Below the pieces are notes generated by a model, which did not search any database, had not been told where the DNA came from, and worked only from the letters and a program-made list of their open reading frames with translations. Below are positions 1-26,513 of a DNA stretch of 64,000 bases, in pieces; the first letter of the stretch is position 1; the number at the start of each line of letters is the position of its first letter. This stretch comes from Sphingobacteriia bacterium (GTDB lineage Bacteria > Bacteroidota > Bacteroidia > Chitinophagales > Chitinophagaceae): contig JAECQP010000006.1 of NCBI GenBank assembly GCA_015999745.1, forward strand, positions 30,846 to 94,845, in the 5' to 3' direction. The position numbers and the translations under genes were made by a program.

Positions 1-2916
1 GGCGTTGGCTGGGCATGCCTGCTGACAAGCTACTTTTATATCGCTGTCTGCCAGCGGTCTGCTGTCTTTCTTCGCTTTCAGCTTACCTTCCTGTAAACGC
101 TGAACACAGAAAGAACATTTCTCAATCACACCTCTTGAACGAACGGTTACATCCGGATTCAACACCATTCTGGTTAAATCGTCGTTCATATCAAGCACCA
201 CATCGTTCACAATACCTCTCTGGTTGTCTCCGAAACTGTCTGCACCTGTGTAATCGGCCCAGTTAAAGCGACGTACTTTATAAGGACAGTTGTTGGCACA
301 ATATCTTGTACCGATACAACGGTTATAAGTCATTTGGTTCAGACCTTCACTGCTGTGGTTGGTTGCCGCTACCGGGCAAACGTTCTCACAAGGAGCATTG
401 TCGCAATGCTGACACATTAACGGCTGGAATACCACATTCGGATTATCCATATCGCCACTGTAGTAACGATCAATTCTCAACCAATGCATCTCATGACCAC
501 GTAAAACCTCCGGTTTACCTACAACAGAAACGTTGTTTTCGGCATTACACGCTACAACACAAGCGCCGCAACCATTACAGGTGTTCAGGTCTATGCTCAT
601 TCCCCATTTGATACCTGGTCTGTCGAATACAGGATACAGCGTACCCTGGCTTTCAAACTTTTCCAGTCCGCCCCATGGCTTCAGTTCTGTATCACGCTCT
701 TCGCGGATCTCAGTTGGATGATGTTTATAAGCAGCTAAGGTTAATTCTTTCATTACCTCGGTACGATTGCCTTGAGCTGTGTCGTAACGGCTATGTGTTT
801 GTGTTAAAGCAACAGGGTATTTTTCTCCGGTTAAAGCAACAGAAACATCATTGCTGGAGAAGTTCACTGCAGATCCGTTCAGTGAAGCAAGTGTGTAGGC
901 ATTTTTACCAACACCTTCAGCAGCTTTACCCACTTTAGCAGTACGGCCGTAACCAACTGCGATTCCGATGGTTTCAGGATGTGTACCTGGAATGATCAAT
1001 GCAGGCAGCTCTATGGATTTACCGCCAACAGTTACTTTCACTACCTTCTTAGGAGGATTTACCTCATAAGCATCTGCCTGACCGCCATTGTTCAGGTCTA
1101 TATTCAGTAAGGTTCTTGCCAATGCAGGGGAAACGATTACATAGTTATCCCAGGTTGCGCGGGTTACCGGATCCGGTAATTCCTGTAACCATGGGTTGGA
1201 TACACCCTGACCGGCGCCGATACCTACTTTCTCGTAGAGAACCAGTTCAATCTTACCGCCTTTTTTGGCAGAAGATGCAGCGGTAACGGCAGCAGCAACG
1301 GCAGCACTGTTAAAGTTTCCGGCACTTACAGTACCGTTGGCTGTGGTGTAAACACCATCCTGTAAAGCCTTGTCCCAACCGGCGACACCACCGAGTTGAA
1401 CGCTCCAGAAGTTTTTGAGGAAGGTAATATAATCTTCAGCGGCACCGCTCCATTTCAGGAGGCTGTCCTGCCACTGACGTGTTTTGAATAAAGGATAGAT
1501 GGCAGGCTGTAAGAAAGAGAAATAACCACTTTTTGCTTCTGCATCACCCCAGCTTTCAAGGTAATGATGATCCGGTAAAACAAACTTGCAGAGCTCAGCA
1601 GTTTCGTCCACTTTGGTAGCGAATGAAACAACTGTTTTCACTTTCTTCAGTCCGGATTTTACTTTTTCTGCATCAAACCAACTGTACACAGGGTTAGCGC
1701 CGTGGATCAGCAAGGTTCCCACAGAACCGGCGTTCATTTCTTCAACCAGTTTAGCAAACTCACCGTCAACACCAGCACGGGTATTGTTGGTTTCTGCCCA
1801 GTTGATGGTAGAACCGGCTGCGCCGACAGCATTGTTGATGGCATTTACAATGATCTGAACATTCACATCATTGCTTCCGGCTACAACCAACGCCGCGCCC
1901 TTATTGGCGTTCAGCGCTTTTGCAGCTTTTTCGATACCGGCTTTCAGTTTGGCATCTTCAATACCAGTGATCGCCTGGCCATTCACCGCACTTAATAAAG
2001 CAGCGGCAATTGCGGCTGTTTCAGAAGGACGATGCAAATATTTTTCATCAGCATTAGAACCGGTGAGAGAAGCAACACTTTCAAAATGAATATGCTTGCT
2101 CATTTCAGGTTTTTTCTCGTCCAGCTTTTTACCAACAGCATATTGTTTGGCAAATTCAACAGGACTCAGCCAGGTACCGAGGAAATCGGCGCCTAAGCTT
2201 ACAATTGCTTTTGCATTGTCAAAACGGTAAGAAGGAATAGCACGAACTCCGTTGGTAGCCTCATTGGCCAGCAACAGGGCGCTGTAAGAAACCGCGTCGT
2301 ATGTTACGTGTTTACTTCCCGGATATTTTGCCAGGAACTGAGCAATAATGGCCTTGGCTGAAGGAGAAGTAATGGTACTGGTTAAGATCACCACAGGTCC
2401 GGAGATTGCAGCGGCGATGGCCTTATCTGCAGCTTCGAAAGTTACTTCCTTGCCTTCGATGGTTGGGAAACGGAGACGGGAAGTATCGTACAGATCCAGT
2501 ACAGAAGCCTGTACTCTTGCAGAGGTACCACCTTTAGTAAGCGGGCTGAGATCGTTTCCTTCAATTTTGATCGGACGGCCATCACGTACTTTGGCTAAAA
2601 CGCTTATTGTGTCACCATCCTGTACATAAGTGGTTGCATAATATTTAGCAACACCAGGTACAACATCTTCAGGTTTATTGGCAAATGGAATGGCCTTTTT
2701 AACCGGCATTTCGCAACTTGCGGCGGCGGCAGCAGCGGCCGTGCTGAATCCCAGGTATTTCAGAAAATCCCGGCGAGGTGCTTTTGCTTCAAGAAAACTC
2801 TTGCCTTCTTCGGCAACAAAGGGAAGCTCTTCCTTAAACTCGTCTTTTACATCCTTATTGTACGCTTCAGACTGATTCAGCTCTCCAAAACTTTGCCAGT
2901 GCTTTTTTTGCTCCAT
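1..2916 (-). CDS. actB: Alternative complex III subunit ActB (TAT-variant molybdopterin-oxidoreductase-like/Fe-S protein), 3' end outside window
   Basis: Frame open from ATG at 2916 to the window edge (972 codons), so the C-terminus is missing and the ORF track does not list it. The N-terminus has the KHWQSFGELN motif of TAT-variant MoCo-type proteins, a twin-arginine RRDFLKYLGF (residues 48-57) and a following Cys (67) that may be lipidated. A long MopB-like region without an obvious cofactor site leads to a C-terminal four-cluster ferredoxin domain from about residue 775: CNGCGACVVAC, CQHCDNAPC, CIGTRYCANNCP and CSFC..ACQQACP. The third motif lacks its second Cys, as expected for the single [3Fe-4S] cluster of ActB. 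The subunit passes electrons from quinol to periplasmic cytochromes. It follows actA closely; actC and later genes should lie left of the window. Assignment is secure by architecture and order. Confidence 0.93.
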   Translation of the reverse strand, partial: MEQKKHWQSFGELNQSEAYNKDVKDEFKEELPFVAEEGKSFLEAKAPRRDFLKYLGFSTAAAAAAASCEMPVKKAIPFANKPEDVVPGVAKYYATTYVQDGDTISVLAKVRDGRPIKIEGNDLSPLTKGGTSARVQASVLDLYDTSRLRFPTIEGKEVTFEAADKAIAAAISGPVVILTSTITSPSAKAIIAQFLAKYPGSKHVTYDAVSYSALLLANEATNGVRAIPSYRFDNAKAIVSLGADFLGTWLSPVEFAKQYAVGKKLDEKKPEMSKHIHFESVASLTGSNADEKYLHRPSETAAIAAALLSAVNGQAITGIEDAKLKAGIEKAAKALNANKGAALVVAGSNDVNVQIIVNAINNAVGAAGSTINWAETNNTRAGVDGEFAKLVEEMNAGSVGTLLIHGANPVYSWFDAEKVKSGLKKVKTVVSFATKVDETAELCKFVLPDHHYLESWGDAEAKSGYFSFLQPAIYPLFKTRQWQDSLLKWSGAAEDYITFLKNFWSVQLGGVAGWDKALQDGVYTTANGTVSAGNFNSAAVAAAVTAASSAKKGGKIELVLYEKVGIGAGQGVSNPWLQELPDPVTRATWDNYVIVSPALARTLLNIDLNNGGQADAYEVNPPKKVVKVTVGGKSIELPALIIPGTHPETIGIAVGYGRTAKVGKAAEGVGKNAYTLASLNGSAVNFSSNDVSVALTGEKYPVALTQTHSRYDTAQGNRTEVMKELTLAAYKHHPTEIREERDTELKPWGGLEKFESQGTLYPVFDRPGIKWGMSIDLNTCNGCGACVVACNAENNVSVVGKPEVLRGHEMHWLRIDRYYSGDMDNPNVVFQPLMCQHCDNAPCENVCPVAATNHSSEGLNQMTYNRCIGTRYCANNCPYKVRRFNWADYTGADSFGDNQRGIVNDVVLDMNDDLTRMVLNPDVTVRSRGVIEKCSFCVQRLQEGKLKAKKDSRPLADSDIKVACQQACPANA

Positions 2917-2999
2917 AATTATTGATTAACAGTTGAAAGCTGTTTTAACAGCCCTCATCGTTCGAATTATATATTTAAAGAAACCTTTCTTACTCAATA

Positions 3000-4259
3000 T
3001 TAGTAGTGACATTTCTGACACTCAGTACCACCGATAAGCTCCACAGTAACACCCTTGGTGCTATCCATCTTACCGCTCTTCAGGTCTGCATGGTATTTCT
3101 CATAAATGCTGTAGAAACCATTGTCTTTGAACTGAACCTTGGTTTCGCGGTGACAGTTCACGCACCAACCCATGCTCAGGTCGGTAAACTGCTTCACTTC
3201 ACCCATTTTCTGAACATCCCCATGACAGGTCTGACAAGCCACCTGGCCGGCTTTTACGTGCTGGGAGTGATTGAAATAAACGTGGTCGGGCAGGTTGTGG
3301 ATACGAACCCACTCAATAGGCTGCGCTTTTGAAGCATCCCATGGTTTGCCTTCCTCATAACCAGCGAACTTGTACAGCTTCTTGATTTCAGCAGTACCGT
3401 CTACTTCCTCACCGGCTTCGTTGAAGATCTTCTCTCCTTTGTATTCGTTGATGGCCATGTGACAGTTCATACAAACATTCACGGAAGGAATAGTAGCCTG
3501 TTTGCCCTGGGCAACGCCTGAGTGACAGTACTGGCAGTTGATCTGGTTGGTTCCGGCGTGAACGGCATGAGAGTAGTAAATAGGCTGCTCCGGCTGATAG
3601 TCTTTGCTTCTGCCCAGCGCCATAGCGCCTTTGGTAGTAAGGTAGCCACCCACAATGAAGAGAATCACGGTGAGCATGGCGATATAGCTCTTGTTCTTGT
3701 AGAAAGGAATCGGCACCAGGTAAGGATGACCATCCTTTTCATCAGAGAGTCTTTTCAGATTGGAGTTTACCTGCAGCATGATCAGGGCAACAACAGCCAG
3801 GATCAGGGTAAGAATACCAAATAACAGGGTGTTATCGGCTTCTACAGGCTTTGCGGCAGCCGCGCCTGCGGTTGCACCGGCTGCACCCGGAGCAGGGACG
3901 GTTTTGATATAGGCCAGGATTGCATCAATCTCCTCGGTCTTCAGACCGGGGAACGCATTCATGGCGATACTGTTGTACTCCTTGTACAGGTTGTTTGCAT
4001 AGGCATCTCCTGTTTTCAGGAAGGCAGCGCTATTGCGGACCCATGCATAGAGGTTCTCTTTGTTGGGCCAGCGATCCTCAACGCCTGCCAGGGCAGGACC
4101 CGTTAATTTCTTGTGTACAGCATGACAAGACGCACAGTTGGCACTAAAAAGTGCTTTACCATCTTGCGCTTTTACAGCTACACTAAAACATACACTGAAC
4201 AGGAAAAAAATAGCGGTTAGGCTGGTTTTGGCTATAGATCTAGAAAATATCATATGCAC
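3000..4259 (-). CDS. actA: Alternative complex III cytochrome subunit ActA, six c-type heme motifs
   Basis: 419 aa exported cytochrome. A signal peptide (about residues 1-31) precedes a class I monoheme domain with CASCH at 42-46 and a likely Met ligand in AMNAFPG. A Ala/Pro-rich linker and a membrane helix (about 145-165) follow, then a second hydrophobic segment (about 193-212) and a class III-like domain with five motifs: CQYCH, CMNCH, CQTCH, CVNCH and CQKCH at the extreme C-terminus. The five-heme part corresponds to pentaheme ActA, and the sixth domain resembles a fused monoheme cytochrome such as ActE. ATG at 4253 is an alternative start. It is first in the operon, 83 bp ahead of actB. 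Role: receives electrons from quinol oxidation and delivers them towards a terminal oxidase. Confidence 0.92.
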   Translation of the reverse strand: MHMIFSRSIAKTSLTAIFFLFSVCFSVAVKAQDGKALFSANCASCHAVHKKLTGPALAGVEDRWPNKENLYAWVRNSAAFLKTGDAYANNLYKEYNSIAMNAFPGLKTEEIDAILAYIKTVPAPGAAGATAGAAAAKPVEADNTLLFGILTLILAVVALIMLQVNSNLKRLSDEKDGHPYLVPIPFYKNKSYIAMLTVILFIVGGYLTTKGAMALGRSKDYQPEQPIYYSHAVHAGTNQINCQYCHSGVAQGKQATIPSVNVCMNCHMAINEYKGEKIFNEAGEEVDGTAEIKKLYKFAGYEEGKPWDASKAQPIEWVRIHNLPDHVYFNHSQHVKAGQVACQTCHGDVQKMGEVKQFTDLSMGWCVNCHRETKVQFKDNGFYSIYEKYHADLKSGKMDSTKGVTVELIGGTECQKCHY

Positions 4260-15672: not shown

Positions 15673-15698
15673 ACAAAAGACCCCCTTTAATAAGGGGG
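15673..15698 (-). terminator. Intrinsic terminator of the NrfD respiratory operon
   Basis: On the minus strand CCCCCTT-ATTA-AAGGGGG (7 bp, tetraloop) is followed by TCTTTTGTT. It lies about 65 nt downstream of the cytochrome c stop. The rest of the 15489-15762 gap shows nothing else. Confidence 0.75.
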
Positions 15699-15762
15699 CC
15701 GGTGTTTTCAAGATGGGTTGGCATTCGTTAAAAACAGGGAATTCATAAGGTCTTACCCGAGC

Positions 15763-16164
15763 TTATTTAAGGGTTCTCATATAATTGATGATAGACCAAA
15801 TTTCATCAGCATCAGGGATTTTTTTCTTGAAAGAAGGCATATCTTTTCTTCCTTCTACAGTTTTATAAAACAGCGCACCGTCTGTTTGAGACTGGAGTGC
15901 AGAAGTGGTGAAATCGCCGCATTCTGTATCCAGTTGAGCAGCTTTGGGGCCATCTCCTTTTCCTTTGGTACCATGGCAGGATTTACAATGCTGGTTATAA
16001 AGTGTTTTACCTTCTGCCAGTGATGCTGCATTACCTTTTAAAGGATTTACCTTGTTTTTCTGCGCATCCGGAACAGGCCATGGTTTTGCCTGGTTAAGAG
16101 AAGTAAAAGCAAATGAGGTTACTACAAAAAGTGCTGCACCCAGCATCATTAGATTCATTTTCAT
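15763..16164 (-). CDS. Monoheme class I cytochrome c
   Basis: 133 aa with a signal peptide (MKMNLMMLGAALFVVTSFAFT). The mature domain has one heme motif, CKSCHGTKGKGDGPKA, and a probable Met ligand in RKDMPSFKKK, with a typical terminal helix (IWSIINYMRTLK). It is a periplasmic soluble or loosely attached carrier. As the last gene of the NrfD/Fe-S operon it is the natural electron partner of that complex, by analogy with monoheme subunits of alternative complex III; this pairing is inferred. Confidence 0.9.
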   Translation of the reverse strand: MKMNLMMLGAALFVVTSFAFTSLNQAKPWPVPDAQKNKVNPLKGNAASLAEGKTLYNQHCKSCHGTKGKGDGPKAAQLDTECGDFTTSALQSQTDGALFYKTVEGRKDMPSFKKKIPDADEIWSIINYMRTLK

Positions 16165-16201
16165 TGTCTGAATTTTTTAATTATTGAATTGGTTTTATAA
16201 G

Positions 16202-17185
16202 TTACGAAATTTCCGGGGTATTATGCGGCTCCTCTTTCCTGAGCCTGATCAGTTCATAAATAATGACGATATAGTGCCCCCAAACGATAGTTACCAATAT
16301 AGAGAATGTAATCACCATCCAAAGTGGCGGGCGGGTACTCCATAAAGCTCTTGGGGCAATTATATTGGCGTCCGATACAGTAGTTCCCCAGGGTTGTTCA
16401 ACAGCAGCTTCCAGATTACCGTACAACTCATTTTCATCCAGGCGTGCAATCAATGTAATATTATGTTTGGCATCCCCTGGTAAATGTGCAGGAACCTCTA
16501 TTGACGCTTCACCCGCTGCGTCAGTGGTACCTTCCCCTATTTTCAACGGGAAGAAACTACGTTTCACAAATAAACCCAATGCGGCTTCCGGTATGGGCGT
16601 TTCAAGTCCTGTACTGATATCTACCAACCGGGCCTGAATGGTGTAAACCGAATCGACAACAACAGGATTGACTGTCAGCAATGCCCTCTTTACCGCTACC
16701 TCTGCATCGGCAGGTTCCATTTGCTTATTGCCGGCATAAATTGCTTTCAGCAAAACTTTCCCTTCGGCATCTGCAACCAGGGGATCTCCTTTTACATTGA
16801 TCACCGCCCTGCCATTTCTGTCGGTAATGGCATGTCCGAGGTTCATTTCACCTGCAGGAGTTACATGTACTATGTTTACTTTGAGCAATGGCAGTTTATA
16901 AAATACGCCTTTCACTTTGGCCTGCATCTTTACCTTGCAATCAATGGTACGGTCTGCTTTCTGAACAGGAATCAGTTCCAGGGAAGGGGCGATCAGCTCG
17001 GATGTAGCTGCGGCAACCATTTCAGTTGCTGCAGGGGAAGTACTGTCTGCCTGTGCCTGTACACCTGTTGCAAAAAGCAATACCAGGGGAACAACCAGGC
17101 TGTACGTTAGCAGGTTACCGGCTTTTACCTTATTCAAAGTATATGTTAGAATATTTTTCATAAACAATATTTTTTCCGGGAGCAT
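16202..17185 (-). CDS. Membrane-anchored protein with Ig/carboxypeptidase-regulatory-like repeats, unknown
   Basis: 327 aa. A signal-like hydrophobic stretch (about 26-46, ending GVQAQ) is followed by two or three beta-sandwich-like modules with the pattern LGHAITDRNGRAVINVKG and IGEGTTDAAGEASIEVP. One C-terminal membrane helix (about 289-311) precedes a basic cytoplasmic tail. The start overlaps the NrfD stop as TAATG, which argues for translational coupling and for ATG 17185, with 17161 as an alternative. It probably presents a periplasmic scaffold to the NrfD complex. I do not recognise a family. Confidence 0.75.
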   Translation of the reverse strand: MLPEKILFMKNILTYTLNKVKAGNLLTYSLVVPLVLLFATGVQAQADSTSPAATEMVAAATSELIAPSLELIPVQKADRTIDCKVKMQAKVKGVFYKLPLLKVNIVHVTPAGEMNLGHAITDRNGRAVINVKGDPLVADAEGKVLLKAIYAGNKQMEPADAEVAVKRALLTVNPVVVDSVYTIQARLVDISTGLETPIPEAALGLFVKRSFFPLKIGEGTTDAAGEASIEVPAHLPGDAKHNITLIARLDENELYGNLEAAVEQPWGTTVSDANIIAPRALWSTRPPLWMVITFSILVTIVWGHYIVIIYELIRLRKEEPHNTPEIS

Positions 17186-18525
17186 TAATTTTCTTTTACG
17201 GACGCTGTGGTACCAGCGGCTGTTTTTTCCTTATCACCGAATTCTGATATCGGAATAATGGTAACAAACTTTGATAACAGGGTGAATAGTAAAAAGAAAG
17301 TGGCTATACCGGCAAATGTCAGCGCCCACTCAACCCAGGTTGCAGAGTACTTTATATACTCCGGTCTTGTATCCTGCATTGGAAGCAGTGTTGATTCCAG
17401 TGTGGGGACAATAATCAGGTATCGTTTCACCCAAAGTGCAATAACCATGAAGAAAGAGGCAATCGTGATTAGGCCCGGCTTCCTGGTAAACGGTATGGCT
17501 ACAACCAAAATCGGCAGCAGTATACCCGCGATGTTTGTAAACAGGAACCATCCGCCATAATATTCCAGGGTAAATAATTTCTCAATCACTTCATTATCCC
17601 ATTTTGCGGAACCAAACCAGGCAGTCAGGTATTCTGAAAAAGTAAAATACCCGTATGCAGCTCCCAGTACCATCATAATATACCCCAGGTATACAAAATG
17701 CTGATCTGTGAGCAGGCTGTTGAGTTTATACATTTTCCGGTACACCCACATGGCCATGATCAATACTCCGGTACCGGAGTAAATAGCTGCGAGCACAAAG
17801 TAAGGGCCGAAGATTGAACTGTGCCATCCCGGCCGCAGTGTCATACCGAAAATCCAGGAAAGAACAGAGTGTACAATGATGGCGAGTGGAATAATCATAA
17901 TGGCCATCAGATCGGTAGAGATTTTGATATGTCTTTTCTGACTGGGTGTTCCCCTGTAACCGATAGCCAGTATGCTATATAATTTTTGTTTCCATTTGGG
18001 AATATTCAGTTTGGCATCCCTGTATATGGCGAAGTCCTTAATTAAAGCCAGGTAGAGAAATATTACACTACCGGTGAAATAAGTGGTGATCGCCAATACA
18101 TCCCAGGTAATAGGCGATTGAAGTCTTGGATAAAGGAAAAGGTGATGCAGCCGGTCCAGCCTTCCCACACACAACAGGATAAACACAGGTCCGATCATTG
18201 TGGCTATAACTGTAATTATTTCTGCAATACGGATAATCGGTTTTCTCCATTCAACATGAAGTATATGGAGCAGGCCGGAGATTACTGCGCCTGCATAACT
18301 GATACCGATAAAGAAAATAAAGTTGGCAATATATAATCCCCACACCACATTATCCCTCATCCCTGTAACAATATGCCCGTCGGCTACCTGCAGGTATAAA
18401 GCATATCCACCTACAAGAATCCACAGGAGAAAGAAAATAGTCCATCCCCAGGTTTTCTTTCCGTAGGTTTCAATAACCGGTTTCTGTTTTTCAAAAATGT
18501 CTTTTTGATATTGATTGAGTTCCAT
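17185..18525 (-). CDS. NrfD/PsrC-type quinone-interacting membrane anchor
   Basis: 446 aa polytopic protein with about ten membrane helices and conserved family segments such as GMRDNVVWGLYIANFIFFIGISYAGAVISG near the N-terminus and LHILHVEWRKPIIRIAE. NrfD/PsrC/ActC subunits bind menaquinol and pass electrons to a four-cluster Fe-S partner. That partner is encoded 44 nt upstream. The next gene overlaps by one base. The length is close to ActC and larger than PsrC. Direction of electron flow (quinol oxidation or quinone reduction) cannot be read from the sequence. Confidence 0.92.
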   Translation of the reverse strand: MELNQYQKDIFEKQKPVIETYGKKTWGWTIFFLLWILVGGYALYLQVADGHIVTGMRDNVVWGLYIANFIFFIGISYAGAVISGLLHILHVEWRKPIIRIAEIITVIATMIGPVFILLCVGRLDRLHHLFLYPRLQSPITWDVLAITTYFTGSVIFLYLALIKDFAIYRDAKLNIPKWKQKLYSILAIGYRGTPSQKRHIKISTDLMAIMIIPLAIIVHSVLSWIFGMTLRPGWHSSIFGPYFVLAAIYSGTGVLIMAMWVYRKMYKLNSLLTDQHFVYLGYIMMVLGAAYGYFTFSEYLTAWFGSAKWDNEVIEKLFTLEYYGGWFLFTNIAGILLPILVVAIPFTRKPGLITIASFFMVIALWVKRYLIIVPTLESTLLPMQDTRPEYIKYSATWVEWALTFAGIATFFLLFTLLSKFVTIIPISEFGDKEKTAAGTTASVKEN

Positions 18526-18569
18526 AATAATTGATGTTCGTTGTTTAAACTAAACCCGGCAACAGCTGT

Positions 18570-19541
18570 TTATTCAGCGCCGCCTTCCATTACATCCCTG
18601 AACCTCGCTTTGAGCTGATCGGGGAGATTTTCATATCCCCTCTCAACCGGAAACTGACGATCTTTAGGAGGCAGGTAATAAACACGTGGCTTGGTACCCA
18701 GTTCTTCCTGGAACCGATAGGCAGCCCTGTCTTTGATCAGCTGGGTAAAGCTTACCGTTTCATCACCATTAGACACGGTATCTTCATTTTCATCGCCAAA
18801 ATAAAACACACCATTAGGGCAGGCTTCCACACATGGGGGGAGTAATCCTTCCCTGGATCTGTCGGGACAGAAATCGCATTTTTCTACGGTGCCTACCCGC
18901 GCAGGAATTCCTGTTTCCGGAGAGTACTGCTGATTAGCGATGGCCTCGGGCATAACCGGATCTGTCCAGTTGAATACCCTGGTAGAATAAGGGCAGGCAG
19001 CCATGCAGAACTTACAACCGATGCAGCGTTCGTTATCGATTAAAACCAGTCCATCCTGTCTTTTAAAGGTTGCGTCTACAGGGCAAACTTTAACACAGGG
19101 CGGATTATCACAATGGAAACATTGTTTAGGGAACCAGTAAGGGGCGGCCTTATCGCTGTCTTTCATCAGTTTCACGGTAAGCCACTCTGTTTCCTGAGGT
19201 CTGTAATGCCATTTCTGACAGGCGGATACACATTTACGGGCGTTCTTACACCTGGAGAGATCCACTACCATCACAAACTTTTTACCCGCCATTCCTTCTC
19301 TGGCCTCCAGCTTAGACACGATTGCCATATGCTCCTGGTGATTCAGGTAAGCTGAATCAATCTCTACAATTTCTCCTTCCGGTGAAAGCAGTTTTACTTT
19401 CTCTCCAACCGGTTGTACGGGCTTTTTAGAAGAACAGGAACAGGCCAGGCTTCCGCAGGCTGCGGTTGCAATACCCGCAATGGCAGCCGTTTTTATGAAA
19501 TCCCGTCTGCTGTTATCATTTATTTCCTCTTGTTGTTTCAT
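18570..19541 (-). CDS. TAT-exported four-motif Fe-S protein with one incomplete cluster motif
   Basis: 323 aa, similar to the B subunits of DMSO-reductase-family complexes. A twin-arginine SRRDFIKTAA (11-20) precedes a hydrophobic run and a Cys-rich region (CGSLACSCS). Cluster motifs are C98-x5-C104-x3-C108, in which the second Cys is replaced by Ala101 (CKNARKC); C141-C144-C149-C153; C173-C176-C179-C183; and C222-C225-C237-C241. Motifs II-IV fit [4Fe-4S]; motif I would suit [3Fe-4S] or lack a full cluster. It mediates electron transfer between the NrfD anchor and a periplasmic partner. There is no molybdopterin subunit in the operon. Confidence 0.9.
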   Translation of the reverse strand: MKQQEEINDNSRRDFIKTAAIAGIATAACGSLACSCSSKKPVQPVGEKVKLLSPEGEIVEIDSAYLNHQEHMAIVSKLEAREGMAGKKFVMVVDLSRCKNARKCVSACQKWHYRPQETEWLTVKLMKDSDKAAPYWFPKQCFHCDNPPCVKVCPVDATFKRQDGLVLIDNERCIGCKFCMAACPYSTRVFNWTDPVMPEAIANQQYSPETGIPARVGTVEKCDFCPDRSREGLLPPCVEACPNGVFYFGDENEDTVSNGDETVSFTQLIKDRAAYRFQEELGTKPRVYYLPPKDRQFPVERGYENLPDQLKARFRDVMEGGAE

Positions 19542-19559
19542 ATGCAGATTTGAATAGGA

Positions 19560-19805
19560 TCAACGATTGTTTTCTTTGGAAGGATTATTCATCCACTGAT
19601 AGATCTCCTGATTGCTGGATTTTATCTTCTTTGAAGCAGCCTCCAGAATCGATTTCTCAACTTCAACCAGCCTGCCATCTGCTGTCAGCATCTTTACCAT
19701 CTCGGGATTCTCCTTACCATCAGTTGAAATGTTGGCACCTTTTCCGGGCACCAATAAAGACAGGAAGCCCCTGCGGCTCCTGTCTTTCTGGTTATTATTT
19801 TCCAT
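19560..19805 (-). CDS. Small protein with twin-arginine motif, partner of the Fe-S subunit
   Basis: 81 aa. It carries SRRGFLSLL at residues 10-18, resembling a TAT motif, but little hydrophobic core follows (VPGKGANIS). The segment KMLTADGRLVEVEKSIL resembles KLLSPEGEIVEIDSAYL near the N-terminus of the adjacent Fe-S protein. It sits 18 nt upstream of that gene and 12 nt after the barrel gene, so it is a real member of the operon. It may be a small structural subunit or maturation factor. No named family recognised. Confidence 0.72.
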   Translation of the reverse strand: MENNNQKDRSRRGFLSLLVPGKGANISTDGKENPEMVKMLTADGRLVEVEKSILEAASKKIKSSNQEIYQWMNNPSKENNR

Positions 19806-19817
19806 GAGAATATTATT

Positions 19818-20747
19818 TTAGAAATTCCACAATCTGGTAATATTGAAGCCGATCACAAAATGACCGATGGTATAATCATTCTGATTATACATATGGTTGT
19901 ACTGTGGAAGTGAATAACGATAATTTCCTACAAACACCTGGAAGCCGTGACCACTTGAATTCATATCCAGTCCAAGACTCAGATTCGGGCGTGGGTTATT
20001 CATCGGGTGTTGGGTCAGCGGCTGATCATAATTGAACATGATCGCAGTTTTTGGTGAAATTTTATACCGGCCGCTCAGCGAAAAGGATAAATGATCATTC
20101 TTCATTGCAGGCTGGATCACATTATTTGCATCGTAATAGCCTTCCACGTTATTAAAGTGTATGTAGTTGAAAGCTGCCTGTGCGGAAAAGGCATCACAGA
20201 ATTTACGGGCTACCATAATCTGGTTGAAGAAACTAAACCGGTCGGATGTGTTGATGATTGGCAATGACAAACTCTTTGCTCTTGTATCCATTGCCGCATT
20301 TCCATAATAAGTAACCGATACCGGCATACTATTATCAGTTTTCTGCTTTAAGATGGCATATTTTGCATTGAAGTCTACCAGCATATTGTAATTGCCCGCT
20401 CCAAAACCTATCTGCAGATCTTTCACCGGAACATAGCTGAACCCTAAGCGCATATTGGCCGCTGCAAAAATGCCGAACAGATCCTTAAAGCCTTTGTCTA
20501 CCGTTCCGAAACGGTGATTGATTGCAAACTCAAAAGTTCCTTTGATAGGCACCATCACGGTTTGATTATCAATCATCAGGTTACCACCGAATGTATTCTT
20601 TGTATAGGATACTTTTTTCACTGCCGGCCGGGCGCTCTCCGTAGAATCCTGCGCCATTAGTCCGTTCCCGGTTATTACTGTGCAAACCAGCAGCAGCATG
20701 AATACGCGGAAACCAGTGAACAACAGATGAATATTTCTTTTTTTCAT
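19818..20747 (-). CDS. DUF5777-type outer-membrane beta-barrel protein
   Basis: About 309 aa from ATG 20747 (MKKRNIHLLFTGFRVFMLLL, signal peptide); the ORF track start at 20804 reads through the preceding gene and is rejected. The mature protein begins with an NTFGGNLMIDNQTVMVPIKG segment and FEFAINHRFGTVDKGFKDLFG, the pattern of the DUF5777 family, followed by amphipathic strands ending ITRLWNF with a terminal Phe, as in outer-membrane barrels. Role unknown. Its place between heme proteins and Fe-S/NrfD genes suggests an outer-membrane conduit or anchor. Confidence 0.82.
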   Translation of the reverse strand: MKKRNIHLLFTGFRVFMLLLVCTVITGNGLMAQDSTESARPAVKKVSYTKNTFGGNLMIDNQTVMVPIKGTFEFAINHRFGTVDKGFKDLFGIFAAANMRLGFSYVPVKDLQIGFGAGNYNMLVDFNAKYAILKQKTDNSMPVSVTYYGNAAMDTRAKSLSLPIINTSDRFSFFNQIMVARKFCDAFSAQAAFNYIHFNNVEGYYDANNVIQPAMKNDHLSFSLSGRYKISPKTAIMFNYDQPLTQHPMNNPRPNLSLGLDMNSSGHGFQVFVGNYRYSLPQYNHMYNQNDYTIGHFVIGFNITRLWNF

Positions 20748-20757
20748 TGTAATTGAT

Positions 20758-21156
20758 TTAATTGTTTTTGGCACCTTGTTTAATCCATGCATAAATTTTT
20801 GCATTGATTTCCGGATCAGGTCCTGCGCCTACAGGCATTACAGGTGATTTTTTACCATTCAACCATAGCATTAGTAAGCTGTTGTCCGGGTCTGTTGCTT
20901 TCAGGTAGTTCCCGGAAGAAAGTGAAGTAAAAGCGCTTGCTGCCATGAGGTTGGGTGCTTTACCGCCTGTGTTATGACATCCGCTTGCAATACAACTCTT
21001 TTCAAAAATGGGAATGATATCTTTTTTAAAGCTCATTTCGGTGGTAATGGAACTACCGGGATTTTCGACGATCGTAACCGTTTTATAACAACCAGACAGG
21101 GCAAATATGATCATGGTAACCAACCCGGATAATATTGCTGTTTTTTTTGTGAACAT
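20758..21156 (-). CDS. Lipoprotein with an atypical CX4CH heme motif (planctomycete-cytochrome-like)
   Basis: 132 aa. A lipobox (ALSGC, Cys23) follows a basic, hydrophobic N-terminus. The domain opens with SFKKDIIPIFEKSCIASGCHNTGGKAPNL, in which C55-x4-C60-H61 is a heme-binding motif with four spacer residues rather than two. MPVGAGPDPEINAKIYAWIKQGA near the end supplies a possible Met ligand and the terminal helix typical of the PF07635-like cytochrome domain. Heme attachment is predicted, not certain. It lies 36 nt after the EB_dh-like gene and 10 nt before the barrel gene. Confidence 0.82.
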   Translation of the reverse strand: MFTKKTAILSGLVTMIIFALSGCYKTVTIVENPGSSITTEMSFKKDIIPIFEKSCIASGCHNTGGKAPNLMAASAFTSLSSGNYLKATDPDNSLLMLWLNGKKSPVMPVGAGPDPEINAKIYAWIKQGAKNN

Positions 21157-21192
21157 GATATTTTGTTTTAAGTAAAACAGTCAGTTACCTTG

Positions 21193-22506
21193 TTATTTCT
21201 GGAATCTCAACAGCAGCCCTGGATGAATACCATGCTGGTTGTTACACCTGTTCCAGAAAGCCACACCAAATGGCTGATCATTTAAACTGGAGAAATCAAC
21301 GTCCTGGTTCAACACATCTGTTGTTTTCAATAAACGCTTGTATTCATATATCCAGCCCGATCCTGTATACACTGCAGACATACCGATATCAGCACGGCCG
21401 CGGAGTACAGGAGCAACAATATTCCCGGGGAAACATTTAGCGCCAATCTCAGCAGTAGCAGATGTGCCCAGGCGTTGATACTCAGTTCCAACAGTTGGAT
21501 CAATAGTACCTCCGTTATAAGTTAATACACCAGTAGAGCTTACAGCAGTAACCAGTTTAGCAGTGCCGCCAGCCAGTGTATCAGCTGCTTTGATAAAATC
21601 AGCAGTAGAACCTGGGATAATCCATTTTGGTACAGCAACTGTAGTACCGGTACCGTCCAGCTTAAGGTTTTGTGTATTGGCAATAGATCCCTGAGTTGCA
21701 TCAGCAGTGTAAGCCGGACGGAATGGCCATGTTGCTGATTTGGTTCCGTCCAATACCAGGTCATCAAAGTGACGACCGTTACCATTACCACCTGTTACAG
21801 CAGTATAAGTAGGTCCGCCGGCCCAGTCCTGATAGTTATCATCCATGTTGCCAAATGCCAATCCTCTGTTAGGGTGCAACCACCACATATCGATTTTCTC
21901 ATTTACTCCATTGGTATAGTGGTTACCACCGGTACCAGGGCTCATTGCAGCAGGTGTTTTTGAATAGTCGAGATAAGGGCCAAATACGTGGCAGGAAGCA
22001 TAGCAGGTTTGGGTAGCAAACTTAGCGGTGGAATTATTCACATTCCAGAGCATGGAAAACTTGTCTTCACCAAAACCGATTCTGGTCATTACACCATTGG
22101 CATCAAAGCTTTTGGAAGTTCCTTCTTTTGCCCAAAGTTTGGTGGTAGGGTTGAAATACCATGGAGCAGATTTAATGCTCTTGTCGTTATCCCTGATCTC
22201 AGCAAGGAAATAGATGTACTGGCCATCGTACATGGAACGGAGCGTTCCGGTGTAAGTTTCTCCGATATAACCAGTGAATAAGTTGCTTCCCGGATCTGGT
22301 ACGGTAGCTGTTAAATTCACTTTAGTCGCATTGTCCCAAATAGCATCAATAGTTCCGTCAATCGTAGGAACGGTTGATGTTTTGTAAGAAAGCAGTTCAT
22401 TGGAATTAGCGGAAGTTACCGGTGCTACTACCTGCGCATTCTTTGTACAATACGCAAAAAGCAGGCTGAAGGAAACAAACAGAAAAAGTGTTAGTGAGGT
22501 TTTCAT
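21193..22506 (-). CDS. Ethylbenzene-dehydrogenase-related heme-binding lipoprotein
   Basis: 437 aa, first gene of the operon. A lipobox-like LLFAYC (Cys20) suggests an outer-membrane-attached lipoprotein. The domain PTIDGTIDAIWDNATKVNL...YIYFLAEIRDNDKS fits the EB_dh family, whose reference members bind heme b as the gamma subunit of Mo-enzymes. Within it lies CYASCH (168-173), a CX3CH motif of unusual spacing that might attach heme covalently. The C-terminal EYKRLLKTTDVLNQDVDF...GVAFWNR also fits the fold. It may be the outermost electron donor or acceptor of the system. Confidence 0.82.
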   Translation of the reverse strand: MKTSLTLFLFVSFSLLFAYCTKNAQVVAPVTSANSNELLSYKTSTVPTIDGTIDAIWDNATKVNLTATVPDPGSNLFTGYIGETYTGTLRSMYDGQYIYFLAEIRDNDKSIKSAPWYFNPTTKLWAKEGTSKSFDANGVMTRIGFGEDKFSMLWNVNNSTAKFATQTCYASCHVFGPYLDYSKTPAAMSPGTGGNHYTNGVNEKIDMWWLHPNRGLAFGNMDDNYQDWAGGPTYTAVTGGNGNGRHFDDLVLDGTKSATWPFRPAYTADATQGSIANTQNLKLDGTGTTVAVPKWIIPGSTADFIKAADTLAGGTAKLVTAVSSTGVLTYNGGTIDPTVGTEYQRLGTSATAEIGAKCFPGNIVAPVLRGRADIGMSAVYTGSGWIYEYKRLLKTTDVLNQDVDFSSLNDQPFGVAFWNRCNNQHGIHPGLLLRFQK

Positions 22507-22556: not shown

Positions 22557-22686
22557 AAAACAGGGGGGCCAATGTCGGGCATCAGACAGTATTATGACAT
22601 TAATCATATTTTAAACCCCATTTTATCGCTATAATTATCAAATTTTAACGATTCAGAACCATTAACACTTATGGTATATACGAAAT

Positions 22687-22806: not shown

Positions 22807-23931
22807 TTACAGAAGGTTAATACATTCTTCAGCCAGGCCAAAACTCAGGGTCATACCTGCACCCCCCAGTCCGTTTAATATGTACACATTATCGGAAGGG
22901 TGGAGGAATAAATGGGAGGCCCCATTGACCATTTTGGGATAAACACCATTCCAGGACTGGGTTAGTTTCCAGTCGGAGATGAGCGCAAACTGCCGCAGGT
23001 ATTGCAAAATCATTTCGTTGATTGCTGTCCGGTCGAACGGATCATGGGTTAATCCGTACTCATGAGAATCCCCCACTGTTAATTCCCCTAAATTGTTCTG
23101 CGATACCATTACATGTATACCATAGCGGAGATACTCCGCCATTTCTGTTTCATACCGCTGCTTCAATGCAGCAAGTGAAGGCGCTGCTTTAAAACTATGA
23201 TAGTGTATCAGGGAGAGCCCGCCACAAAGTGACGTACCGAGATCATAGCCCTGAACGCTGCTCTTAAAACGCATCATTTGCAATTTGCACCGGGTAATTT
23301 CAATACCCGCAAACAAAGAAGGATAAAGGGTTTCAAAATCCGCACCGCTGCAAATAAAGATGAGATCTGCCCCTATCCATGCTGATCCGGTGTATACTTT
23401 ATTATTTTCCACGGCGCTTATTGCTGTTCCCCAAATGAATTTAACATCCAGAAACTCAGCCAGGTATTCTGCAATATTTCCAATTGCAATCCGTGGGTCT
23501 ACAATCATCTCGGAAGCACTGTATAAACCTCCCATTAAATTGTCCGGGTTAACCGAACCTGATTTTTCGATTACGCCTTTCTTATCTAATAATTCAACCT
23601 CACGGCCCTCAGCCTTAAATATTTCATATAATTCCTGCAACACAGTCCATTCATCGTCATAATAGGCGGCATGAATGCTGCCGGTTTCACTGTATGCCAG
23701 CCCGGTGCTATCGGCGATATCCTTCCAAATGGCTTTGCTTCTCTCCGCCCTGTTATGCAGTTCTCCTGCTGGTTGGCCAATGGGCCACACCATACCGAAA
23801 TTTCTGATAGATGCACCAACAGCCTTATCTGTTTTTTCAATCACAGTAACGTCTAATCCCTTTAAACTCAGTGCCCGGGCTGTTGCCAGCCCTACAATAC
23901 CTGCTCCGATTACGACTGCCTTCTGTTTCAT
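22807..23931 (-). CDS. FAD-dependent oxidoreductase of the phosphonate-associated HpnW/PbfD type
   Basis: 374 aa DAO-fold flavoenzyme. The N-terminal dinucleotide motif is VIGAGIVGLATARAL, with a terminal GLGGAGMTLSFGLAE. The segment GASIRNFGMVWPIGQP resembles the subfamily found in 2-aminoethylphosphonate gene clusters (TIGR03364-like). Characterised relatives oxidise the amine of aminoethylphosphonate or N-methylated versions to phosphonoacetaldehyde. It overlaps the DUF5690 gene by 4 nt and is the last gene of a tight cassette with PhnZ- and PhnX-like genes, which supports this role. Substrate specificity is inferred. Confidence 0.87.
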   Translation of the reverse strand: MKQKAVVIGAGIVGLATARALSLKGLDVTVIEKTDKAVGASIRNFGMVWPIGQPAGELHNRAERSKAIWKDIADSTGLAYSETGSIHAAYYDDEWTVLQELYEIFKAEGREVELLDKKGVIEKSGSVNPDNLMGGLYSASEMIVDPRIAIGNIAEYLAEFLDVKFIWGTAISAVENNKVYTGSAWIGADLIFICSGADFETLYPSLFAGIEITRCKLQMMRFKSSVQGYDLGTSLCGGLSLIHYHSFKAAPSLAALKQRYETEMAEYLRYGIHVMVSQNNLGELTVGDSHEYGLTHDPFDRTAINEMILQYLRQFALISDWKLTQSWNGVYPKMVNGASHLFLHPSDNVYILNGLGGAGMTLSFGLAEECINLL

Positions 23932-25247
23932 AAATAAGGTTGGGTTTTTATGTATCCGGTGTATGATCTATATAGTTTGTGGTGAATCTGAACTGTGTAA
24001 AATATCAATGCCACCCCTACAATGGATGATGTATAAAACAGATTAGAGAAAAAAGAAGTCCAGCTGTATTCTATCGTAACAAATTCCTTAATCAGCAGAA
24101 CCAGCACTGTTCCTAGGTAACCAAAAGCGTCTGCTATATACATTACAAAGCCAACATTTGCTTTTAGTTCATACACAGAAAGAAAGCGCTCAAAATAGAG
24201 GCAGTTAAAAGGCAAATAGGCCAGATACAAACCTGTGGTTGCAGACAGCATCCATACAAACGCACTTATTAATTGCATATTGAATAAAAGCGTAGCCACA
24301 AAAGAAAGCAACAAGCCTGCGATAATCAGGTAATGTGTACGGATAAAAGCAACATAATTACTCTTTATCAGAAAGAAGCTGGCAATAATGATCAGCACAA
24401 CCAGCGACATAATGGTACTTGTTTGAGCAAAAATGCCAATGTTAGTATGCCCGGTTTCCAACCAAAGTTCGTTGGCAAAGTCTTCACAGAAATCCCTGAC
24501 GATGGTAAATGTGGCATAGCTGATTACGATTGGGATGATCGCAAATCCAAACTGTTTTAAGAAATCATTTCGCTCTTTTCCGGTCATGGGTTTACGGATA
24601 TTTCTCTGGGCAATATCTTCTGCCGAAGGCGGCGGCATATGCCCCAGCAACCAGACTGCAGCGATCAGTGGAACGAGGAAAAAAGCTCCGGCCGTAAAGG
24701 GCATCCACCATTCGCTGACATGCATTTTCAACAATAGCCATTTCCCAACGGTTTTGGCCAGCCCGGAAGCAAAGATGAAACTGGTTGCCAGGAAGGCGCC
24801 CATGATTTCCGTGGTTCTTCTGCCTTCCAGCAACCCAAAGATCAATCCAAATATCATCCCAAGCGGAAGCCCATTGATAAAAAGACATATCATATTATAT
24901 GGCGCAGGGATTATGGCAAACAGCAGTAGGGAAACCCATGCAATACCTATAAACAGCAATATATAGTAAATCCTCTTTGCGGGATTCATTCCGGAAATAA
25001 AACGAATGCCTAAAAATTTACTGATCATATATCCCAACACCTGTGCAATCACCAGGCAAACCTTATAAGAAATACCAAGAACATAAAGATGATCGTACAA
25101 CCCAACCGTAAATGGTTTCCGGAAACCATACATACAGGAATAAGCTACAAAAGAGGCAAAAGAAGCATAAATAACAAAAAGCAGCGAAGAGCTATTCAAC
25201 TTTCTGCCAATTGTAATATGATGCTTCAATAGCCTGTTTTTGCCCAT
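23928..25247 (-). CDS. DUF5690 family MFS-like transporter, candidate phosphonate importer
   Basis: 439 aa with about 11-12 membrane helices. The opening FASFVAYSCMYGFRKPFTVGLYD matches the DUF5690 family, which resembles the GlpT/UhpC organophosphate antiporter branch in the YGFRKPF-like motif. It lies 4 nt after the PhnX-like gene and overlaps the FAD oxidase gene by 4 nt (ATGA), making it an integral part of the phosphonate cassette. No ABC-type phosphonate transporter is present here, so uptake of an organophosphonate by this protein is the natural inference. Confidence 0.85.
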   Translation of the reverse strand: MGKNRLLKHHITIGRKLNSSSLLFVIYASFASFVAYSCMYGFRKPFTVGLYDHLYVLGISYKVCLVIAQVLGYMISKFLGIRFISGMNPAKRIYYILLFIGIAWVSLLLFAIIPAPYNMICLFINGLPLGMIFGLIFGLLEGRRTTEIMGAFLATSFIFASGLAKTVGKWLLLKMHVSEWWMPFTAGAFFLVPLIAAVWLLGHMPPPSAEDIAQRNIRKPMTGKERNDFLKQFGFAIIPIVISYATFTIVRDFCEDFANELWLETGHTNIGIFAQTSTIMSLVVLIIIASFFLIKSNYVAFIRTHYLIIAGLLLSFVATLLFNMQLISAFVWMLSATTGLYLAYLPFNCLYFERFLSVYELKANVGFVMYIADAFGYLGTVLVLLIKEFVTIEYSWTSFFSNLFYTSSIVGVALIFYTVQIHHKLYRSYTGYIKTQPYL

Positions 25248-25251
25248 GTCG

Positions 25252-25932
25252 TCAAATAAGTAGTGGAAGGAGTTCAGAAAGTGATCCGATTACGATATCC
25301 GGATTGGCTTGCTGTAGTTGTTCCGCAGTATGTGCACCTGTGGTGATACCGGCTACCAGTCCACAAAGTGCATTTTTTCCTTCTGCTATATCAATGGAAG
25401 AATCCCCCACTTTAACTACAACCGAAGGGTCTGTTAAATTAAAATGCTGCATGGCTAGGTGGATCATATCCGGAGCGGGGCGCCCGTTGGCTACATCACT
25501 TGCTGTAATCAGCAGATCAATATCGGCACCAATTTCCCAGTTCAGTTTTTCCAGTAATTTTTTTGCTGTGAATGAGTCATAACCCGTATTCAGCACAACC
25601 AGTATCCCATGCGCTTTCAATGCATTAAAAATTGCGGCAGCCCCTTGCTGGGGTTTTACAGGGGCAAAATGGTAAGCGCCGGTGAGATTCTGCATGAAAT
25701 GAGCATATATTTCATCAATGCTTGTTGTTGGTATTGCTACCTGCATCTGGTGCAGCACATCCTCAATGGCCTTTCTTTTTTCCTTTCCGGCTCCGTAGGC
25801 AAGGACTTCCTCCAATGAACAATCCACTCCTGCCTGTTGAAGAGACTGGTGAAGTGTTTTATATACCAGGTTGTCTTCGTCTACAGTTGTACCGGCCATA
25901 TCAAATACAACCATTTTATACCTGCCACTCAT
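25252..25932 (-). CDS. PhnX-like (phosphonatase-like) HAD hydrolase
   Basis: 226 aa HAD-superfamily protein. Motif I is FDMAGTTVDEDN, matching the D-x-AGTTVD signature of phosphonoacetaldehyde hydrolases; the acidic motif is VVKVGDSSIDIAEGKNA, and LNTGYDS supplies the motif II Thr. The cap region includes YGAGKEKRKAIEDVL. It belongs with the phosphonatase-like subfamily (TIGR03351-like). The expected product from phosphonoacetaldehyde would be acetaldehyde plus phosphate, but the true substrate is unproven. It starts 2 nt after the HD gene stop. Confidence 0.87.
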   Translation of the reverse strand: MSGRYKMVVFDMAGTTVDEDNLVYKTLHQSLQQAGVDCSLEEVLAYGAGKEKRKAIEDVLHQMQVAIPTTSIDEIYAHFMQNLTGAYHFAPVKPQQGAAAIFNALKAHGILVVLNTGYDSFTAKKLLEKLNWEIGADIDLLITASDVANGRPAPDMIHLAMQHFNLTDPSVVVKVGDSSIDIAEGKNALCGLVAGITTGAHTAEQLQQANPDIVIGSLSELLPLLI

Positions 25933-25934
25933 GA

Positions 25935-26513
25935 TTATTCCGGTTTATTTGTTAAGTGTTCTATGATCAGCGTTCTGTATTTATCCAAATTTGCAGGAAG
26001 CGGCACATTCTCCATTTTGGCCATTTCATCAATTTTCCGAAGCGCAATAATATCTTTAAACCAGGCAAGCCGCTCAAACGCCGCCGCCTCTTCGGCCGAC
26101 ATGGGCCCTCCCTGAAATTCCAGTGTCCTTTTGCTGGCCACAGACAATGCATCGTTGTATTCTTTAAACCTGTAACACAAATACCTTTTTGCAGGAACAT
26201 GATTGGCTACTGCATCGATAATGCGTTGAGAAAACCCACGCAACTGCAGGTACTCCGCACCGGTTTTTTCATGATCGATCACCCCAAAACCATCCATATC
26301 GTTTTCTTCCGATGTTTCCACACATACATGTCCAATATCGTGCAGGAGAGCCGCAATAATCATCTCATCACCCAGTTGCAGATCTTCTGCCATCATGGCG
26401 CTTTGTACCATATGCTCCAGTTTGGTAACCGGCTCACCAATGTATTCAGAGCCGCCATGGGATACCAGCAGGTTGATAATTTCGTCCGCAATACTTTGTG
26501 CAGTCATACGCAT
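25935..26513 (-). CDS. phnZ: HD-domain mixed-valent di-iron oxygenase, PhnZ-like
   Basis: 192 aa. Residues line up with those known for PhnZ almost number for number: Y24 and E27 in EYIGEPVTKLEH, H34, H58-D59 and H62 in LLHDIGH, then H81, H105 (ANHVPAKRYL) and D162 (RKIDEMAK). PhnZ cleaves the C-P bond of a 1-hydroxylated aminoethylphosphonate, releasing glycine and phosphate. Retention of the Tyr/Glu pair argues for an oxygenase rather than an HD phosphohydrolase. The usual partner, a 2-oxoglutarate dioxygenase (PhnY), is not in this window. It is the first gene of the tight cassette. Confidence 0.88.
   Translation of the reverse strand: MRMTAQSIADEIINLLVSHGGSEYIGEPVTKLEHMVQSAMMAEDLQLGDEMIIAALLHDIGHVCVETSEENDMDGFGVIDHEKTGAEYLQLRGFSQRIIDAVANHVPAKRYLCYRFKEYNDALSVASKRTLEFQGGPMSAEEAAAFERLAWFKDIIALRKIDEMAKMENVPLPANLDKYRTLIIEHLTNKPE

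Follow-up and report, generated by a model that had tools for sequence, protein, structure and literature searches.

NrfD-type membrane subunits paired with iron-sulfur (Fe-S) proteins are known without any molybdoenzyme, as in NrfCD, SirCD, CbcTU, MccCD, QrcCD and DsrOP (PMC8076601, PMC11434368, PMC13059093). Two of these systems, SirCD of Shewanella and Cbc4 (CbcSTU) of Geobacter, are stand-alone pairs that pass electrons to cytochromes and feed anaerobic or extracellular respiration (PMC11434368). The eight-gene operon described here resembles them in its inner part. It lies on the minus strand, at 15763-22506 of a stretch of 64,000 nucleotides (the window) from contig JAECQP010000006.1 of a Sphingobacteriia bacterium (Chitinophagaceae). 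We give about even chances to its being a trans-envelope electron route without a catalytic enzyme of its own, in which a SirCD/Cbc4-like quinol dehydrogenase is coupled to an outer-membrane cytochrome-porin resembling a split Cyc2. SirCD and Cbc4 provide the precedent for the inner module and contradict the premise of a preliminary description of this DNA, that NrfD and Fe-S proteins normally serve a molybdoenzyme. The operon differs from both in its monoheme and EB_dh-like partners, which replace the multiheme CbcS, in its own barrel unit and in its ActC-like NrfD.

Open reading frame (ORF) calling reproduces the eight genes in the order reported earlier, separated by 10-44 bp or overlapping slightly, and Pfam identifies the EB_dh, DUF5777, Fer4_11, NrfD and cytochrome c members (Table 1). 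The 81-aa protein (p81) and the immunoglobulin (Ig)-like protein have no significant Pfam match and the CX4CH protein has only a weak cytochrome match (E 0.06). Compared with the nearest relative (L052), amino-acid identity is 72-90% across all eight genes. Nonsynonymous divergence (pN) is far below synonymous divergence (pS) in each of them, with synonymous sites saturated, which indicates that the operon is maintained under purifying selection and that no gene is decaying. The operon is therefore real, tightly packed, intact and strongly constrained.

A profile search of the genome collection with the Fe-S protein found at least 574 relatives, and 80 loci were kept and read. Nearly all are titled Bacteroidota (Chitinophagaceae, Saprospiraceae, Cyclobacteriaceae, Sphingobacteriaceae and Bacteroidales); one metagenome-assembled genome labelled Comamonas clusters with Bacteroidota and looks like a case of mis-binning. 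Clustering of all ORFs in these loci, many of which are cut by contig ends, gives the Fe-S protein in 79, NrfD in 77, cytochrome c in 68, DUF5777 in 59, CX4CH in 57, p81 in at least 39, YceI in 28 and EB_dh in 19. Gene-order maps resolve two modules: a core (p81, Fe-S, NrfD, Ig-like protein, cytochrome c) and an outer triad X-CX4CH-DUF5777, often present in tandem copies. The X position is occupied by EB_dh, by YceI (the commonest), by a protein of about 400 aa with a double CX4CH motif or by a 5-6-heme lipoprotein with a collagen-like stretch. Certain Bacteroidales loci additionally contain a 7-heme cytochrome and a cytochrome b561. Beyond the cassette, regulators and unrelated synteny, the same clustering yields no shared catalytic partner in the 80 loci.

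Within the family of the window's genome, the cassette is present in 46 of 150 genomes. Besides the window's genome, 7 of this set have an NrfD orthologue with 69-86% identity and 38 more have one of a second clade (37-41% identity); subunits of alternative complex III (ACIII), at about 31% identity, are found in nearly all. EB_dh is almost confined to cassette carriers (15 of 46 against 1 of the 104 negative genomes; p 4e-8). An isolate-rich sample of the phylum contains the cassette in only 7 of 297 genomes. Its carriers include the environmental isolates Flavihumibacter profundi KCTC 62290 and Solitalea agri MAHUQ-68 (loci L083 and L099). Five loci (L053, L070, L103, L113 and L122) each have two Fe-S-NrfD units in tandem, one from each clade in L053, an arrangement that recalls the ActC/ActF pairing. 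Full-text searches, with subscription papers mostly outside their scope and novelty accordingly provisional, retrieved no paper naming DUF5777 and none on this operon. The operon is thus widespread and apparently undescribed, and it pairs an inner module of a familiar type with an outer partner of a new one.

The inner module may be read as a quinol dehydrogenase of the NrfCD/SirCD type. The Fe-S protein carries a twin-arginine (RR, Tat-type) leader and four ferredoxin motifs, as do the exported Fe-S proteins associated with NrfD in those dehydrogenases. The four motifs reported earlier are all recognizable; motif I (CKNARKC), however, lacks its second cysteine, leaving 15 of the 16 ligand cysteines, and this position is Ala, Leu or Val in 96 of 98 relatives. 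In NarH-type proteins the cluster corresponding to motif I faces the molybdenum (Mo) subunit, and its alteration would fit a protein without a Mo partner. The nearest PDB entries are ArrB and PsrB. Resemblance to DsrMKJOP and QrcCD is seen in NCBIfam, where DsrO is the best match of the Fe-S protein (189.1, cut-off 200) and DsrP that of NrfD (88.1, cut-off 350), but both scores fall below the cut-offs and DsrM, DsrK, DsrJ and QrcAB are absent among the neighbours. In the PDB, the NrfD profile finds nothing but ACIII subunits, scoring 245-274 bits with ActC (6f0k_C 273) and weakly with ActF. Ser137 and Asp142 of the window's NrfD correspond to Ser164 and Asp169 of ActC, and the SPxxWD motif is invariant in 96 of 96 sequences. 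The p81 product, with an RRxFL leader and a VKMLTxDGxLVEVD segment, shares homology with about the first 75 residues of the Fe-S protein (its profile matches 98 of 98 Fe-S N-termini, best 4.4e-17); from these matches we identify it as a stand-alone duplicate of the leader region. The AlphaFold model of the Ig-like protein (pLDDT 86.5) has a beta region at 67-264, matching Ig-like folds, and a helix at 288-318.

The absence of a catalytic Mo subunit, claimed earlier for the operon, extends to its relatives. The genome, 3.03 Mb in size and 98% complete, yields a single Molybdopterin-family match, and this is the ActB of a separate ACIII. Eight MopB representatives and ActB, used as queries against the ORFs in 99 neighbourhoods, gave just two matches: in L074, the ActB of an ACIII directly upstream, and in L096, a partial match about 7 kb past the core. 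Neither is part of the cassette, so the linked Mo enzyme that would mark the operon as a degraded known enzyme is not found among homologous loci.

The outer module combines X with the CX4CH and DUF5777 proteins. In the window X is an EB_dh-like lipoprotein (lipobox Cys20) whose covalent-heme motif CX3CH (168-173) is invariant in 19 relatives, as are Asp206, Trp208 and His425. The AlphaFold model of the DUF5777 protein (likely true start Met20, at about 20747) is a 12-stranded barrel with a pLDDT of 83, and its best PDB match is the 12-stranded porin NanC. A role as a multiheme sheath of the Mtr type was rejected on strand number. In 87 of 91 cases the CX4CH gene immediately precedes DUF5777, the median gap being 20 bp. 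Moreover, seven genomes of another order (L189, L210-L214 and L216) encode both in one protein composed of a signal peptide, a cytochrome domain and the barrel; the cytochrome domains match the CX4CH profile at 19-38 bits, with E-values derived from a small ORF set. The L210 fusion gene follows genes for a MauG-type peroxidase and a Mo protein of sulfite-oxidase fold.

This order of an N-terminal monoheme cytochrome and a C-terminal barrel, in a single chain in the seven fusions and in two adjacent genes in the window, is that of Cyc2. The operon's barrel nevertheless has 12 strands instead of 16, its cytochrome is a lipoprotein with CX4CH in place of CXXCH, and the AXPXFAR[QK][TY] motif is missing (definition of Cyc2 in PMC8406198). 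The CX4CH-DUF5777 pair is therefore best read, by analogy, as working like Cyc2 without belonging to that family. Fusion and adjacency speak for barrel and cytochrome joining in a single outer-membrane unit, a putative electron conduit. It also shares with Mtr/Mto and other porin-cytochrome conduits a barrel, a heme protein and an exchangeable further heme protein, but here the barrel is small, the core is monoheme and multiheme proteins are restricted to some relatives.

An FNR/CRP-type motif is enriched in the upstream regions of cassette genes. TGAYN4RTCA occurs in 55 of 86 cassette upstream regions and in 91 of 321 other regions of the same loci (Fisher p 2.5e-9, overstated since related loci are not independent); the longer form ATGAYN4RTCAT is found in 24 of 86 and 33 of 321, respectively, and twice in the 64 kb window. 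FNR-type regulators with N-terminal Cys pairs lie beside about 13 related loci, a count made by inspection because the single-linkage cluster of 21 'CRP' loci included response regulators; seven are divergent and within ~310 bp. A scan for sigma-70 promoters gave no excess over shuffled sequences. Low-oxygen control by FNR-type regulators is the simplest reading of the predicted boxes, and the operon is probably expressed at low oxygen.

Taken together, menaquinol would be oxidised at the periplasmic face of NrfD, with its conserved Ser137 and Asp142, and electrons would pass through the four-motif Fe-S protein to the monoheme cytochrome c, with the Ig-like protein, which has a transmembrane (TM) helix, and the leader paralogue p81 holding this part of the route in place. 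The cytochrome would deliver them to the outer unit, the CX4CH lipoprotein plugged into or docked on the barrel, with the EB_dh-like lipoprotein as an exchangeable periplasmic adaptor; this unit would act as a two-gene version of the fused Cyc2. Most likely electrons would then leave the cell or meet a surface acceptor, at low oxygen. The view that the quinone pool and the outer membrane exchange electrons, put forward in the preliminary description, is thus plausible and supported as a reading. It rests on the association of both modules in a stereotyped cassette, on the adjacency and fusion of CX4CH and DUF5777, on the ActC-like NrfD with its conserved quinone-site residues on the interchangeable X and on the Bacteroidales version with a 7-heme cytochrome and b561, which resembles electron-export systems. 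The 12-stranded barrel, the confinement of EB_dh, the enrichment of FNR/CRP-type boxes and the purifying selection argue in the same direction. What favours extracellular acceptors is that the core so regularly comes with a heme/barrel unit in the outer membrane, one whose outer end can be a multiheme lipoprotein. Gene content, conservation and intactness, the heme motifs and quinone-site residues, the barrel size in a confident model, the fusions and the lack of a linked Mo enzyme are observed; we infer complex formation, the order of electron carriers, the outward direction, FNR-type control and the terminal acceptor: the architecture is fairly well supported, the mechanism moderately, and the direction and acceptor weakly. 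More tentatively, the locus may represent an undescribed form of extracellular electron transfer in Bacteroidota, in which an ActC/SirD-like dehydrogenase and a CX4CH/DUF5777 cytochrome-porin, with plug-in EB_dh, YceI or multiheme modules, are switched on at low oxygen by FNR-type regulators.

Several observations weigh against this route. The position of ActC His139, the quinol-protonating residue, is Asp in 51 and Cys in 37 NrfD relatives; the window's protein (Cys119) belongs to the Cys clade, which is well supported, and each of the two groups requires one change on the tree. In the same clade the position of ActC Asp253 is Leu or Ile. The QrcD variant D120A retains 68% activity (PMC13059093), suggesting that Cys at the His139 position need not abolish function. 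A barrel of 12 strands is narrow, and a single heme may be too short a path across the outer membrane; the X found most often, YceI, is heme-free; and the window's lipoproteins show by eye no evident surface-export signal. No linked electron acceptor was found among the neighbours in the 80 loci. Finally, DUF5777 is present in 116 of 297 Bacteroidota genomes sampled and, in 20 neighbourhoods inspected, usually accompanies YceI and a monoheme c lipoprotein without NrfD, so that the outer unit must have uses beyond this inner partner. The window's genome itself has a second DUF5777 gene with YceI, an OB-fold protein and a two-heme c lipoprotein (L170, 6863-9982). In L173 (6157-8027) and L177 (6196-8171), DUF5777 and YceI stand beside a Rieske-domain protein, without NrfD or the Fe-S protein, a possible alternative electron input.

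Another explanation, rather unlikely but the best of the rivals, is an ACIII-like menaquinol:cytochrome c oxidoreductase for low oxygen, whose cytochrome c feeds periplasmic reductases such as clade II NosZ, or an oxidase, the outer triad being a side branch. Both the NrfD closest to ActC and the monoheme cytochrome c of most loci speak for it. NosZ is present in the window's genome; within the family it occurs in 35 of the 46 genomes with the cassette and in 45 of the 104 without it (p 2e-4, phylogeny not corrected for). In L034 (16528-19901) the cassette is 3.5 kb from NosZ, together with a cytochrome c, an Rrf2 regulator and a hemerythrin/ScdA-type repair protein. This frequency and adjacency keep a cytochrome c-NosZ branch alive as a rival, although the adjacency is seen in one locus only. 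NrfA gave only 5 marginal matches in the 150 family genomes. Against an ACIII function stands a true ACIII in the same genome, about 12 kb from the operon: ActA (six CXXCH) and ActB are encoded at 1-4259 of the window, and ActC, D, E, F and further genes just outside it. The operon is therefore an addition to ACIII. This rival also gives no account of why an outer-membrane triad goes with the core. Membership of ACIII proper was rejected, since neither 15763-22506 nor the related cassettes encode ActA, the MopB-like part of ActB, ActD or ActF. Of the earlier suggestion of a reduced ACIII relative, only the kinship of NrfD with ActC persists; the Fe-S protein is nearer to ArrB, PsrB and DsrO, and its altered motif is I whereas that of this genome's ActB is III.

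Electrons could also flow inward, the CX4CH-DUF5777 pair oxidising extracellular Fe(II) or reduced organics and supplying ACIII or an oxidase and, uphill through NrfD, menaquinone. The domain order shared by the fusions and the iron oxidase Cyc2 (PMC8406198), the cytochrome-to-menaquinone direction of QrcCD (PMC13059093) and the nearby ACIII genes are consistent with it. It is unlikely: the pair falls outside the Cyc2 family and the multiheme variants resemble export systems. Moreover, the bacteria that carry the cassette look heterotrophic from what is known of their families.

A redox maintenance system of the outer membrane, with electrons from quinol holding YceI-type lipocalins and heme lipoproteins in the reduced state so that they quench lipid peroxyl radicals, is very unlikely, even though YceI is both the most frequent X and part of the generic DUF5777 trio and the lipocalin BcnA with the cytochrome b561 LcoA offers a precedent (PMC9113575). 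Many loci, the window's included, have EB_dh or a multiheme protein as X, the window's operon lacks YceI and has a different inner-membrane partner, and low-oxygen-type regulation fits oxidative stress poorly. A degraded complex iron-sulfur molybdoenzyme is hardly credible and was rejected: such enzymes often include NrfD and Fe-S proteins (PMC8076601), but no cassette Mo subunit occurs in the 99 neighbourhoods, all eight genes are under purifying selection and the cassette is widespread and stereotyped.

To our knowledge, no dedicated outer-membrane electron route has been established for the Bacteroidota, which abound in soils, sludge and lakes. If the proposed trans-envelope route is correct, common soil and freshwater members may have an undescribed way to respire with something outside the cell, DUF5777 would be a second cytochrome-porin family beside Cyc2, and NrfD/Fe-S matches in such genomes, which are readily labelled polysulfide or nitrite reductases, would be accounted for by a quinol dehydrogenase. 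The CX4CH-DUF5777 gene pair would provide a cheap marker.

Table 1. Features of the operon and its flanks (positions in the window)
Feature	Position	Strand	Evidence
X subunit, EB_dh-like lipoprotein, 437 aa	21193..22506	-	Pfam EB_dh 2.9e-18; alignment of 19 relatives
Monoheme c-type lipoprotein with CX4CH, 132 aa	20758..21156	-	sequence; family profile
DUF5777 outer-membrane beta-barrel	19818..20804	-	Pfam DUF5777 4.4e-73; AlphaFold model
81-aa protein (p81)	19560..19805	-	p81 profile against Fe-S N-termini
Tat-exported Fe-S protein, four ferredoxin motifs	18570..19541	-	Pfam Fer4_11 7.8e-25; NCBIfam DsrO 189 bits
NrfD/ActC-like integral membrane quinone-interacting subunit	17185..18525	-	Pfam NrfD 7.3e-33; PDB profile matches
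Periplasmic Ig-like protein, signal peptide and one C-terminal TM helix	16202..17185	-	AlphaFold; fold matches
Monoheme cytochrome c (CKSCH), likely soluble or tethered shuttle	15763..16164	-	Pfam Cytochrome_CBB3 2e-12
Terminator-like hairpin 3' of last gene	15679..15700	-	pattern only
FNR/CRP-family-type palindrome ATGACATTAATCAT, ~88 bp 5' of first gene	22594..22607	.	pattern match

Directly upstream of the operon (22807-26513), a phosphonate-breakdown-like cluster was recognized by eye, with an FAD oxidoreductase, a transporter, a PhnX-like HAD hydrolase and an HD-domain protein.

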